Made by a program: the position numbers and the translations under genes
Shown here: one piece after another, positions 7,865 to 21,789 of the stretch
How positions within the stretch are numbered: position 1 is the first letter of the stretch
Layout of the letters: each line of letters starts with the position of its first letter
Notes under the pieces: model-generated
What the model was told of the DNA's origin: nothing
Databases searched by the model: none
Seen by the model: only the letters and a program-made list of their open reading frames with translations
Source: Hyphomicrobiales bacterium
GTDB taxonomy: Bacteria; Pseudomonadota; Alphaproteobacteria; Rhizobiales; CAJQND01
Reading direction: 5' to 3'
NCBI GenBank assembly: GCA_028285595.1
Contig: JANQOW010000088.1
Coordinates: 1 to 64,000, forward strand
DNA length: 64,000 nt

Positions 7865-7986
7865 TTGTAAGCGCATCAATTTTTTGCTATATCTCGAATA
7901 GGCAGCCATGCGCCGGAACAACCCAGAGCATTCGAGAGTCTGCAGGCGAGAGATCGCAATCATGGGCCGGGGGGCTGCCCTTTTCA
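7865..7986 (+). ncRNA. Possible second small transcript with own promoter
   Basis: TTGTAA (7865-7870), 17 bp and TATATC (7888-7893) predict a start near 7900. From there GGCAGCC (7901-7907) can pair with GGCTGCC (7973-7979), closing an RNA whose interior has the hairpin GCGA-GAGA-TCGC (7946-7957), and the 3' side continues into TTTT. The inverted repeat TCTCGAAT (7892-7899)/ATTCGAGA (7930-7937) spans the predicted start. No conserved RNA family is recognised. The 3' end touches the stop codon of the convergent DUF3800 gene, so the structure might serve that gene's 3' end instead. Confidence 0.3.
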
Positions 7987-8906: not shown

Positions 8907-9009
8907 CATCCTAAAGACTTAACCGTCCTTAGGCCGCTCTGCACATGGCTTGGTCCGGGAGGCAGAGGGGTTACCACCCGTCAGCGATGTTCGCCCGCGG
9001 GTGCTTTTT
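8907..9009 (+). ncRNA. Structured ffh leader or small RNA
   Basis: Between the predicted start and ffh the RNA can form three hairpins: CCTAA/TTAGG (about 8910-8932), CTCTGC/GCAGAG (about 8937-8967) and CACCCG (8975-8980) with CGGGTG (8998-9003), the last followed by C and TTTTT (9005-9009). That is terminator-like, 35 bases before ffh. It may attenuate ffh, or end a ~100-nt RNA of its own. The conserved SRP RNA core with its GGAA loop is absent, so this is not called as 4.5S RNA. Confidence 0.4.
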
Positions 9010-9043
9010 GCGTTGGGCATTTGGATCTTTGAGCCGAAGTTGA

Positions 9044-18591: not shown

Positions 18592-19359
18592 ATGAGCCTG
18601 GAGACTGTGGCGTTTCTCGTGTGCATTGGACTGTTCGGCGGGGCCTGGAATGCGGTTGCCGGCGGCGCCACCCTGTTCACCTTTCCCGCCCTGATGGCGG
18701 CCGGCCTGCCGCCTGTTGTGGCCAATGCGACCAACTATCTGGCCATGCTGCCGTCTAACGCCGCGGCTCTGCCGGCCTATCGGCGCGAGCTGGCTGGTGT
18801 GGGCTCCGCCATTTGGCCGCTGATCATTGTCTCCGGGTTGGGGGCAATCGCCGGCTCGTTGTTGCTGCTTGTGTCGGGGGAAAAACTGTTCGAGGCGCTG
18901 ATCCCTGCCCTGGTGTTGGCGGCGACCGCTTTGTTTGCGTTCGGTGAGCGCATCCGGGCAGCCTTGGTGGACGGCCTGAAGGGCGCCTCAACCGGCCTGC
19001 TGCTTTACGCTGCGCTCTTCGCGTTCTCCATCTATGGCGGCTATTTCGGCGCCGGGTTGGGGATCATCCTTCTGGCGATCGTGCAGATTATGGGGTTCTC
19101 GTCCTTTCACGTGGCCAACAGCCTGAAGAACCTGCTGGCCACCAGCTTCACCATATTGAGCATCGGCGTGTTCGGCGTGAGCGGGCTGATTGCCTGGCCG
19201 GAAGCTGTGGTGGTGATGTGCGGCAGCACGTTAGGCGGGGACTTCGGGGCGCGCTGGGCCCGGCTCGTCAACGAGCGCTACTTAAGAGCTGCCGTCATCT
19301 GCTTTGGCCTTACGTTGGCCGGGATCTATATCGCGAAGGCCTTCGGTCTCTGGGCTTAG
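18592..19359 (+). CDS. TauE/SafE family membrane exporter
   Basis: 255 residues, nearly all in about eight hydrophobic segments, with the family features GGAWNAVAGGATLFTFPAL, a Pro-rich break before NATNYLAMLPSNAAA and a matching second-half GYFGAGLGIILLAI. The family moves sulfite, sulfoacetate or related anions; the substrate here is not known. AAAGGAG fixes the ATG at 18592. Its stop codon overlaps the stop of the convergent lysE-like gene by two bases, so there is no intergenic space. Confidence 0.9.
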   Translation: MSLETVAFLVCIGLFGGAWNAVAGGATLFTFPALMAAGLPPVVANATNYLAMLPSNAAALPAYRRELAGVGSAIWPLIIVSGLGAIAGSLLLLVSGEKLFEALIPALVLAATALFAFGERIRAALVDGLKGASTGLLLYAALFAFSIYGGYFGAGLGIILLAIVQIMGFSSFHVANSLKNLLATSFTILSIGVFGVSGLIAWPEAVVVMCGSTLGGDFGARWARLVNERYLRAAVICFGLTLAGIYIAKAFGLWA

Positions 19360-19946
19360 AACAGCATGGGCGCGAGCGAGGCCACCAGCAGGAGTGCCAT
19401 GGAGATGTTGAAGACACGCAGCTGGAGCGGATTGGTGAGGAACCGGCGCATCTGTTGGCCAAGGATGGTCCAGGAGCCAACGGATGGCAGGTTCACCAGC
19501 CCGAACACCAGCGCCACCAGCGCAATGGCTGCAAGGCTCTGGGAGGGCGCATAGACGGTGACCGCCGTGAGGGCCATAGCCCAGGCTTTCGGGTTCACCC
19601 ACTGAAACAATGCGGCCTGGAGGAAGGTCATGGGGCTGGCCGAACGGCCGGCCTCGCCCGGTGCGGAAGAGTTCGCGATCTTCCAGGCCAGATAGAGCAG
19701 GTAGGCCACACTGAAGACCTTCAGAACCGTGTAGCTCACCGGATAGGCATCGAACACCCCCACCAGCCCGGCGCCCACCAGGATCACCATGATGACAAAC
19801 CCCAGCCCCACACCCAGCATGTGCGGGATGGTGCGGCGGAAGCCGAAATTGGCGCCTGATGTCATCAGCATCAGATTGTTGGGCCCCGGCGTGATGGAGG
19901 TCACGAAGGCAAAGGCGGCCAGTGCGGTGAGAAGGTCATAGGTCAT
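19356..19946 (-). CDS. LysE/RhtB family amino-acid exporter
   Basis: 196 residues with six hydrophobic segments and the family signature VTSITPGPNNLMLMTSGANFGFRR at residues 13-36. These carriers export amino acids such as lysine, homoserine or threonine. The ATG at 19946 gives the typical start MTYDLLTALAAF; the longer frame crosses the divergent Lrp gene. The divergent Lrp regulator 74 bp away matches the usual regulator-exporter pair. Confidence 0.9.
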   Translation of the reverse strand: MTYDLLTALAAFAFVTSITPGPNNLMLMTSGANFGFRRTIPHMLGVGLGFVIMVILVGAGLVGVFDAYPVSYTVLKVFSVAYLLYLAWKIANSSAPGEAGRSASPMTFLQAALFQWVNPKAWAMALTAVTVYAPSQSLAAIALVALVFGLVNLPSVGSWTILGQQMRRFLTNPLQLRVFNISMALLLVASLAPMLF

Positions 19947-19981
19947 GGCCGCAAGGGTTGCCGATTTGGCATCGAATTTGG

Positions 19982-20019
19982 TTGCAATCTCGCTCGTAAA
20001 ATCACAAAATTTGCAATCT
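19982..20019. promoter_or_regulatory. Direct repeat in lysE-lrp intergenic region
   Basis: TTGCAATCT occurs at 19982-19990 and again at 20011-20019, directly against the lrp ATG, 29 bp (about three helix turns) apart. The spacing on one DNA face and the position between divergent exporter and regulator genes suggest an Lrp operator. Confidence 0.4.
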
Positions 20020-20472
20020 ATGGTCAAGTTAGATGCGATAAACGAAAGAATATTGCGCGAACTCACCACCGATGGTCGCACCAGCAATCTGGAGCTGGCC
20101 GAACGGGTGGGTCTGTCTCCGTCGGCCTGCCTGCGCCGGGTGCAGGAGCTGGAGCGGTCCGGGGTGATCAAAGGCTACCGTGCCGTTTTGGACCGCGGCG
20201 CCATGGGCGTGGGGTTTGTGGCCTATATTGCGGTGGGCCTGTCTGATCACTCCAAGGCGTCGCAGGAGGCCTTTGAGCGTTCCATCTCCCGGGCACCGGA
20301 GGTGGTGGAGTGCCATAACATCACCGGAACCATGGAATATCTGCTGCGGGTGGAGGTCTTGGACCTTGCCAGCTACAAGATTTTTCACACCGAGGTGCTT
20401 GGCACGCTGCCTCAGGTGAACTCGATCACGTCCTACGTGGTGATGGGCTCTCCTAAAGACGAACGGGCCTGA
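20020..20472 (+). CDS. Lrp/AsnC family regulator
   Basis: 150 residues: a helix-turn-helix (INERILRELTTDGRTSNLELAERVGLSPSACLRRVQELE) and an RAM ligand domain (VECHNITGTMEYLLRVEVLDLASY). The ATG at 20020 is the normal family start. Divergent from the LysE-type exporter, which it probably activates in response to an amino acid, as Lrp-like regulators of LysE exporters do. An inverted repeat, GAGCGCT (20471-20477) with AGCGCTC (20515-20521), starts at its stop codon. Confidence 0.92.
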   Translation: MVKLDAINERILRELTTDGRTSNLELAERVGLSPSACLRRVQELERSGVIKGYRAVLDRGAMGVGFVAYIAVGLSDHSKASQEAFERSISRAPEVVECHNITGTMEYLLRVEVLDLASYKIFHTEVLGTLPQVNSITSYVVMGSPKDERA

Positions 20473-20529
20473 GCGCTATAATTCATTGACTCTTGATCAA
20501 TTCCCTTTAGATAGAGCGCTCAAACGAGG

Positions 20530-20649
20530 ATGAAGTTCACTGTGATGGCACGGCTTGACACAGCATTGATGATCGGGACCACGGCAACCGCCGTGGCCAA
20601 ACCGTCCTCTACGTGCAAACGCACGACCAAAACCACCACGAAATCTTAA
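20530..20649 (+). CDS. Putative Thr/Lys-rich leader peptide of asd
   Basis: A 39-codon frame starting ATG 20530 and ending TAA 20647-20649, 99 bp before asd. Eleven of 39 residues are Thr, and the last ten codons before the stop read KRTTKTTTKS. Thr, Lys and Met are end products of the pathway that Asd feeds, which is the logic of a leader peptide. Hairpins lie within it (CCACGGC 20579-20585 with GCCGTGG 20590-20596; CGTGC/GCACG 20612-20625). GAGG abuts the ATG with no spacer, a poor ribosome site; ATG 20545 (15 bases after GAGG) is an alternative. No homologue is known to me. Confidence 0.45.
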   Translation: MKFTVMARLDTALMIGTTATAVAKPSSTCKRTTKTTTKS

Positions 20650-20654
20650 TTCGT

Positions 20655-20727
20655 CCTCCCCGATCATTTCTCTCCCTTCGGGGAGAGGCGAGATCAGCAA
20701 CCTGCCGGGCCAAGAGCCTTGAAGGGA
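20655..20727 (+). promoter_or_regulatory. Mutually exclusive hairpins before asd
   Basis: CTCCCCGA (about 20656-20663) can pair with TCGGGGAG (about 20679-20686). CTCTCCC (20670-20676) can instead pair with GGGAGAG (20681-20687), and the wider TCTCTCCCTTC can pair with GAAGGGAGAGA (20721-20731) just ahead of the asd ribosome site AAAGGAG. These choices exclude each other, as in an attenuator or a translation switch. No clear T-run follows, so control of translation initiation is the more likely mode. Confidence 0.45.
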
Positions 20728-20748
20728 GAGAGGCAAAGGAGAAGAGCG

Positions 20749-21789
20749 ATGGGCTACAAAGTCGCTGTTGTTGGCGCCACAGGAAATGTGGGCCGTGAAA
20801 TGTTGTCGATTCTGGCTGAGCGGGAGTTTCCCGTCTCTGAAGTGGTCGCCCTGGCCTCGCGCCGTTCGCAAGGCACTGAGGTGAGCTTCGGCGATGAGAC
20901 GCTGACCTGCAAGACCTTGGAATCTTACGATTTCTCCGACACCGATTTCTGCTTGATGTCGGCCGGCTCGGCCATCTCCAAGGAATGGTCGCCCCGTATC
21001 GGCGCCCAGGGCTGTTTGGTGATCGATAACTCCTCATGCTGGCGTTATGATCAGGACGTGCCCCTGGTGGTGCCGGAAGTGAATGCCCATGTGCTGGAAG
21101 GCTACATGGCCAAGAACACCCGCAAGAACATCATTGCCAACCCCAACTGTTCCACCATTCAGATGGTCGTGGCGCTCAAACCTCTGCATGACGCCTTCAA
21201 CATCAAACGGGTTGTGGTCTCCACCTACCAGTCCGTCTCCGGCGCCGGCAAGGACGCCATGGAGGAGCTTTGGGGCCAGACCAAGGGCATCTTCGTCACC
21301 GATGCGCCGGAGCCTGAAAAGTTCACCAAGCAGATCGCGTTCAACGTGATCCCCCATATTGATGTGTTCATGGAAGACGGCTCCACCAAGGAAGAGTGGA
21401 AAATGGTGGCCGAAACCAAGAAGATCCTGGATCCGAAAATCAAGGTTACGGCCACATGCGTGCGTGTGCCGGTCTTTGTGGGACACTCCGAGGCGATCAA
21501 TCTGGAGTTCGACAAGTCGGTTACGGCTGACGAAGCGCGCGATGTGCTGCGCGAAGCTGCCGGGTGCCTGGTGGTCGATAAGCGCGAGGATGGGGGCTAT
21601 GTGACCCCGGTTGAAAGTGTCGGCGAGTTTGCCACCTTTATCAGCCGCATCCGCGAAGACATCACGATTGAGAACGGTCTCAACATCTGGGTGGTGTCGG
21701 ACAATCTGCGCAAAGGCGCAGCGCTCAACACCGTTCAGATTGCAGAATCGCTGATCAACCGCGGTCTGATGACCCAGAAGGCGGCTTAA
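20749..21789 (+). CDS. asd: Aspartate-semialdehyde dehydrogenase
   Basis: 346-residue NADPH enzyme that reduces aspartyl phosphate to the semialdehyde, the branch point to Lys/diaminopimelate, Thr and Met. The Rossmann motif is VVGATGNVGREML; the catalytic cysteine is Cys134 in IANPNCSTIQM; SVSGAGKDAMEEL and VRVPVFVGHSE are family segments. AAAGGAG fixes ATG 20749; a frame back to 20719 has no ribosome site. A 10-bp hairpin overlaps its stop codon. Confidence 0.97.
   Translation: MGYKVAVVGATGNVGREMLSILAEREFPVSEVVALASRRSQGTEVSFGDETLTCKTLESYDFSDTDFCLMSAGSAISKEWSPRIGAQGCLVIDNSSCWRYDQDVPLVVPEVNAHVLEGYMAKNTRKNIIANPNCSTIQMVVALKPLHDAFNIKRVVVSTYQSVSGAGKDAMEELWGQTKGIFVTDAPEPEKFTKQIAFNVIPHIDVFMEDGSTKEEWKMVAETKKILDPKIKVTATCVRVPVFVGHSEAINLEFDKSVTADEARDVLREAAGCLVVDKREDGGYVTPVESVGEFATFISRIREDITIENGLNIWVVSDNLRKGAALNTVQIAESLINRGLMTQKAA

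Follow-up and report, generated by a model that had tools for sequence, protein, structure and literature searches.

A threonine- and lysine-rich leader upstream of asd in the Hyphomicrobiales is probably an attenuator with a candidate pseudoknot

Introduction

Biosynthesis of lysine, threonine, methionine, isoleucine and the diaminopimelate of the cell wall branches at asd, and both threonine and lysine derive from the asd product. The closest described relative of the system analysed here comes from Sinorhizobium meliloti, in which a translated small ORF, SEP5, carries six threonine and three lysine codons near its 3' end (PMC10117765). SEP5 lies in the 5' untranslated region of a gene named 'aspartate dehydrogenase', was called 'possibly a leader peptide' and was reported as conserved in Sinorhizobium only (PMC10117765). 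It is the one report of such an asd leader that we found in the open literature; the attenuator survey of Vitreschak et al. (2004) may also mention asd. A second system, the leuA LEU element of the Actinobacteria, combines a leader ORF of regulatory codons with a conserved pseudoknot and an alternative hairpin and has no terminator; Rho has been proposed to act on terminator-less leader peptides in that phylum (PMC1262725).

Here we describe a leader frame upstream of asd in a 64,000-nucleotide stretch of DNA from a Hyphomicrobiales bacterium; this whole stretch is called the window. An initial annotation, made from the letters of the window, had read the frame and the hairpins behind it as an aspartate-pathway attenuator and had added that no such leader was known for asd. 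The last statement is too broad, as SEP5 had been put forward in 2023 as a candidate leader peptide. We compared the locus with other asd loci of the order and of other alphaproteobacterial orders.

Results

The leader frame and its surroundings

The features of the region are collected in Table 1. As the initial annotation had it, the leader ORF holds 11 threonines in 39 codons and ends in KRTTKTTTKS directly before its stop, and the Pfam domains of the downstream gene bear out its naming as asd. Nine of the 12 codons of the leader tail, TCKRTTKTTTKS, are for threonine or lysine, and these cluster at the 3' end of the ORF. The frame is short and many of its codons specify end products of the asd pathway; its stop lies 99 nt before the asd start.

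Table 1. Features of the asd leader region, in window positions
Feature	Position	Strand	Remarks
-35-like hexamer TTGACT	20486-20491	+	kept in same-genus genome; TTGAC class enriched upstream of leaders
-10-like hexamer TAGATA	20508-20513	+	kept in same-genus genome; 16-nt spacer (TTGACT-16-TAGATA)
Leader ORF	20530-20649	+	39 codons from ATG 20530; 34 codons from ATG 20545
Segment 1, 5' strand of stem S1 (CUCCCCGA)	20656-20663	+	pairs with 20678-20685
Segment 2, 5' strand of stem S2 (UCUCUCCCU)	20669-20677	+	pairs with 20723-20731
Competing 2:3 hairpin CUCUCCC-UUCG-GGGAGAG	20670-20687	+	sequence; weaker co-variation
Segment 3, 3' strand of stem S1 (UCGGGGAG)	20678-20685	+	as segment 1
Segment 4, 3' strand of stem S2 (AGGGAGAGA)	20723-20731	+	as segment 2
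asd ribosome-binding site AAAGGAG	20735-20741	+	sequence
asd, aspartate-semialdehyde dehydrogenase	20749-21789	+	Pfam PF01118 (Semialdhyde_dh) and PF02774 (Semialdhyde_dhC)

The same-genus comparison consists of one genome with asd (G001), whose Asd protein is 92% identical to that of the window. ATG 20530 is not kept in this genome, where a 1-nt deletion breaks the frame. The frame from GTG 20542 or ATG 20545 is open to the same stop with one 3-nt indel, so the breakage by indels that the initial annotation had raised as an objection does not affect it. The start region kept in the relative is that of ATG 20545, and TCKRTTKTTTKS is the leader end in both genomes.

The two hexamers upstream of the frame suggest a transcription start near 20520, just ahead of the leader. 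Of 86 leaders, 76 have such a sigma70-like promoter (TTGAC plus a -10-like hexamer) ahead of them, where shuffled sequences would give 5.0.

An Rfam search of 20480-20760 placed no family, known amino-acid leaders included, above its gathering cut-off. The whole window has two Rfam matches above cut-off, both on the + strand and both away from the asd leader: a DUF3800-VII RNA (RF02967) at 7901-7984 and, about 1 kb from it, an ffh sRNA (RF01793) at 8960-9011. Directly upstream of the leader, in 19356-20472, are a gene for an Lrp/AsnC-type regulator (Pfam) and, divergent from it, a membrane protein frame on the - strand that by eye looks like a LysE/RhtB-type amino-acid exporter. It is possible that this pair forms a second amino-acid-responsive unit next to the asd leader.

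Recurrence of the leader in the Hyphomicrobiales

We scored a locus as having a leader when a frame with at least seven threonine plus lysine codons among the last 12 before its stop ended 60-170 nt upstream of asd. This test was passed by 60 of 129 non-redundant Hyphomicrobiales asd loci (46.5%), by none of 13,978 random windows and by none of 473 regions upstream of other ORFs in the same loci. The threonine/lysine tail is thus far above chance. The tail KTTTKTV is typical of Mesorhizobium, Brucella/Ochrobactrum and Phyllobacterium; Devosia has KTKTTKTTR and TKTTKTA, Chthonobacter TKTTTTT and Aureimonas TKTTITI. In Aureimonas and relatives (L083, L090 and L097) isoleucine stands beside threonine and lysine (TKTTITI, TKTTIII and STIKTAIS), as if isoleucine might be sensed too.

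The N-terminal part of the leaders is conserved neither in length nor in sequence, and the shortest leaders have 12 residues (MKPAKTTKTKKS and MNISTKTKTKTV). This bears on the idea that the frame is a gene for a small protein with a role of its own, its threonine and lysine richness being unrelated to asd control. A stable product would fit that idea, and S. meliloti SEP5 was stable enough to be detected as a tagged protein (PMC10117765). However, only the tail recurs, and the frame stays tied to asd with structured RNA behind it; we consider an independent protein very unlikely.

Codon choice in the tails is also distinctive. In 86 loci the leader tails encode lysine by 198 AAA and 23 AAG, and the asd genes of these loci show the opposite bias (214 AAA and 1676 AAG). 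The preference for AAA may restrict decoding to a single isoacceptor or prevent pairing of the RNA.

The leader is specific to asd in our sample. Among 12 genomes (11 for hom), the regions upstream of lysC, hom and thrC reached a maximum of five threonine plus lysine codons in 12, and a wider leader regulon of these genes was rejected for the genomes scanned. Mapped on a tree of 131 Asd proteins, the presence and absence of the leader call for 18 changes, whereas shuffled labels call for 41.7, so its distribution is clustered but patchy. About one third of the Hyphomicrobiales loci are without a leader by the test used, the nearest sister lineages of the window on this tree among them. In two of these sister lineages (L004 and L006) the leader is gone and a frame that by eye is leuB-like ends directly before asd; this arrangement fits the loss of a separate promoter, as if asd had joined the neighbouring operon.

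RNA segments behind the leader

The three complementarities listed in the initial annotation are exact in the window: CTCCCCGA (20656-20663) with TCGGGGAG (20678-20685); CTCTCCC (20670-20676) with GGGAGAG (20681-20687), closed by a UUCG loop; and TCTCTCCCTTC (20669-20679) with GAAGGGAGAGA (20721-20731), adjoining AAAGGAG. GC-rich genomes contain many hairpins of this general kind, which lends some initial plausibility to a chance frame followed by a dispersed palindromic repeat. However, the hairpin has one match at up to three mismatches in the 5.96-Mb genome and is single copy in the window, so the genome-wide repeat that the initial annotation had feared is absent. As none of the 13,978 control windows reaches the leader score either, we regard chance plus a repeat as exceedingly improbable.

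Four segments recur in the Hyphomicrobiales. Segment 1 lies just past the leader stop, segment 2 at about +18 and segment 3 right after segment 2, while in almost every locus 13-30 nt separate the end of segment 4 from the asd start. To measure co-variation we used a swap test, in which the helix formed by a locus's own strands is compared with helices formed by strands exchanged between loci, on 37 cluster representatives and with ungapped helices. The 1:3 pairing gave z -4.6 and the 2:4 pairing z -4.4; 2:3 was weak (z -2.8) and 1:4 did not co-vary (z -0.45). With non-overlapping boundaries the values were -3.2/-2.4 for 1:3, -4.3/-3.6 for 2:4 and -2.3/-2.0 for 2:3, with 1:4 not significant. 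Among 12 very distant representatives the 2:4 signal stays (-2.5/-1.9) and 2:3 stays weakly, and the 1:3 signal fades (z -1.4 and -0.25). A version of the test with long gapped duplexes was uninformative, because any C-rich stretch will pair with any G-rich one.

The alignment of relatives proposed in the initial annotation gave the same picture: the frame and its threonine and lysine codons are kept, and so is the pairing, with compensatory changes. In an alignment of 14 relatives 1:3 and 2:4 together have 15 double-sided changes, against 5.9 in shuffles (0 of 500) and at most 5 when slid; 1:4 has three and 2:3 has one. Examples at the 2:4 position are UCCCCCG/CGGGGGA (L120), UCUCCCG/CGGGAGA (L116) and UCGCUCU/AGAGCGG (L033). 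Just before segment 4, an extra local hairpin with changing paired bases is seen by eye in L033, L036 and L112-L121.

The comparison yields two crossing helices, short loops and compensatory change, the features of an H-type pseudoknot. With moderate confidence, the order 1-2-3-4 with 1:3 and 2:4 can be read as such a pseudoknot next to the asd ribosome site. In the window S1 would have 8 bp and S2 9 bp, with a 5-nt loop between segments 1 and 2 and with segment 2 abutting segment 3. The initial annotation had described three competing hairpins. The pairings do exist; however, 1:3 and 2:4 can coexist, and it is the 2:3 hairpin, with its weaker co-variation, that would compete with both.

Thermodynamic folding was less informative. 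The window RNA exceeds shuffled sequences in stability only slightly (z -1.3). Its nested minimum fold differs from the pseudoknot, and in it segment 1 is paired with the ribosome site and the start region of asd. By energy alone a nested 1:4 plus 2:3 fold looks equal to the pseudoknot, but we rejected it for its lack of 1:4 co-variation and its few double changes. An RNAalifold consensus of a 29-sequence clade alignment was weak and missed crossing pairs. When the leader end was masked in 85 loci, nested folding gave no consistent change in the exposure of the asd ribosome site. The suggestion in the initial annotation that a stalled ribosome frees asd translation thus finds no backing in ordinary nested folding, where masking barely shifts this exposure.

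Leaders in other alphaproteobacterial orders

In a class-wide sample, five of 60 loci had a leader with at least seven threonine plus lysine codons. With a looser cut of six, two of these orders had leaders in 8 of 16 readable loci and in 11 of 19, respectively. A strong intrinsic terminator, a hairpin followed by a U-tract, was present in 13 of 22 distinct leaders outside the Hyphomicrobiales; the other nine mostly have a similar hairpin by eye, with the U-tract weak or absent. The 5' arm of those 13 terminators also pairs with the segment immediately past the leader stop, as in L200: GCGGCC (after the stop) : GGCCGC : GCGGCC-TTTTTGTTTTT. This pairing implies that in the terminator-type relatives a free segment 1 means that asd is ON.

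The same test found a strong intrinsic terminator between leader and asd in 0 of 86 Hyphomicrobiales loci, the window included. A classical transcription attenuator of the trp/thr type was rejected for the window's order, as no GC-rich hairpin with a U-tract was found in these loci. This leaves room for a leader of the same kind whose output depends on Rho: transcription would end in the untranslated stretch ahead of asd, and the pseudoknot or hairpin would mask or uncover a C-rich site at which Rho enters. C-rich segments right past the leader stop and the missing U-tract terminators would suit this, and there is the precedent proposed for the Actinobacteria (PMC1262725). On the other hand, the co-varying helices abut the ribosome site, suggesting control of translation. 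We treat Rho-dependent control of asd as a live rival of low probability.

Discussion

Comparison across genomes argues for a leader frame with its own promoter, for its specificity to asd, for two co-varying helices behind it and for classical attenuators at the same gene in other orders. The leader's recurrence, promoter, asd specificity and co-varying helices support the aspartate-pathway attenuator reading of the initial annotation, and we have high confidence that it is a threonine/lysine leader attenuator of asd. We put the probability of an amino-acid-responsive asd leader at roughly 0.9.

We propose a model in which the translating ribosome would sense charged tRNA-Thr and tRNA-Lys and the leader peptide would attenuate asd. 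A short transcript would start about 10-25 nt ahead of the leader ORF, which ends in threonine and lysine codons. If both amino acids are plentiful, the ribosome would get to the leader stop and cover segment 1 while the downstream RNA is being synthesized; the local 2:3 hairpin would then form and asd would be low. If threonine or lysine is scarce, the ribosome would stop a few codons earlier and leave segment 1 free to pair with segment 3. Segment 2 would then pair with segment 4, and the resulting pseudoknot beside the asd ribosome site would turn asd up.

The direction of this switch is taken from the terminator-type relatives. Because a free segment 1 appears to mean ON in them, starvation in the Hyphomicrobiales should favour 1:3 plus 2:4, and plenty should favour 2:3. 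Furthermore, as segment 1 of the window pairs with the asd ribosome site in the nested fold, drawing it into the pseudoknot would free that site; this is suggestive and comes from one sequence only. We infer the order of events, the pseudoknot as the ON state and control on translation rather than through Rho. The specific scheme, with the 2:3 hairpin in plenty and the pseudoknot in starvation, has in our view an even chance of being right. Several points count against it: the read-out of the other orders, the intrinsic terminator, is absent from the 86 Hyphomicrobiales loci; nested folding responds to masking of the leader end with no clear change; the window RNA is little more stable than shuffled sequences and its minimum fold is another one; the 1:3 signal fades among very distant representatives; and about one third of the loci of the order are without the leader. 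Our confidence in how the switch is read out is low, translation control of asd being the best guess.

The same leader could also work with the opposite sign. Here the 2:4 helix would pin the region of the ribosome site, as the closeness of segment 4 to that site would allow, and a ribosome at the leader end would break 1:3 and open the site. However, a ribosome stalled at the threonine and lysine codons would reach to about +3/+4 past the stop, so that most of segment 1 would stay free. To cover segment 1 the ribosome has to be terminating, which gives the wrong sign, and the logic of the terminator-type relatives is also contrary. We therefore think it unlikely that the pseudoknot is the OFF state, and prefer it as the ON state.

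These observations would extend beyond one locus. The asd leader spans nitrogen-fixing symbionts, Brucella relatives and many environmental Alphaproteobacteria, and a leader that reads two end products together would give the pathway a general point of control that annotation has missed. It is conceivable, at slightly less than even odds in our judgement, that the Alphaproteobacteria share a threonine/lysine-sensing asd attenuator and that one order swapped the terminator for a ribosome-controlled pseudoknot, keeping the sensor and changing the output. With the same leader followed by a terminator in some orders and by a putative pseudoknot in another, the evolution of a regulatory read-out is directly testable.

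How does the asd leader compare with known systems? Like SEP5, it is a short frame in a 5' untranslated region with threonine and lysine codons clustered towards its 3' end, and both the window and its relatives match this description. The tail KTTAKTTTKTV of Mesorhizobium and Nitratireductor has exactly six threonines and three lysines. As this composition matches the SEP5 counts, SEP5 is very likely an asd leader of the present type, the S. meliloti 'aspartate dehydrogenase' being taken as asd. The SEP5 report gave no RNA structure, relatives in other families or orders, or mechanism.

The terminator-type leaders of other orders precede the same gene, have the same kind of tail and carry segment 1 directly past the leader stop. 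However, they use a classical antiterminator and terminator with a U-tract, and the Hyphomicrobiales leaders do not. The Escherichia coli thr attenuator (thrL) is similar in that a leader peptide with threonine codons controls aspartate-pathway genes, but it controls thrABC, uses threonine and isoleucine codons and has an intrinsic terminator, whereas the Hyphomicrobiales leader uses threonine and lysine codons, precedes asd alone and has no terminator.

Two further systems resemble it in RNA structure. Asano and Mizobuchi reportedly described, in 1998, a pseudoknot switch at repZ of the IncI-alpha plasmid ColIb-P9. There too an upstream leader ORF is followed by a pseudoknot right before the ribosome site, which raises translation; unlike the asd leader, repZ involves antisense RNA control and plasmid replication and has no amino-acid codons. 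The LEU element shares the ORF with a codon run, the pseudoknot and the alternative hairpin without a terminator. It differs in gene, phylum and amino acids, and its codon run pairs with the ribosome site, whereas the 1:3 and 2:4 helices of the asd leader lie wholly downstream of the stop. What is new against all of these is the terminator in other orders versus 0 of 86 Hyphomicrobiales loci, together with the co-varying 1:3 and 2:4 pairings, a candidate pseudoknot, in that order.
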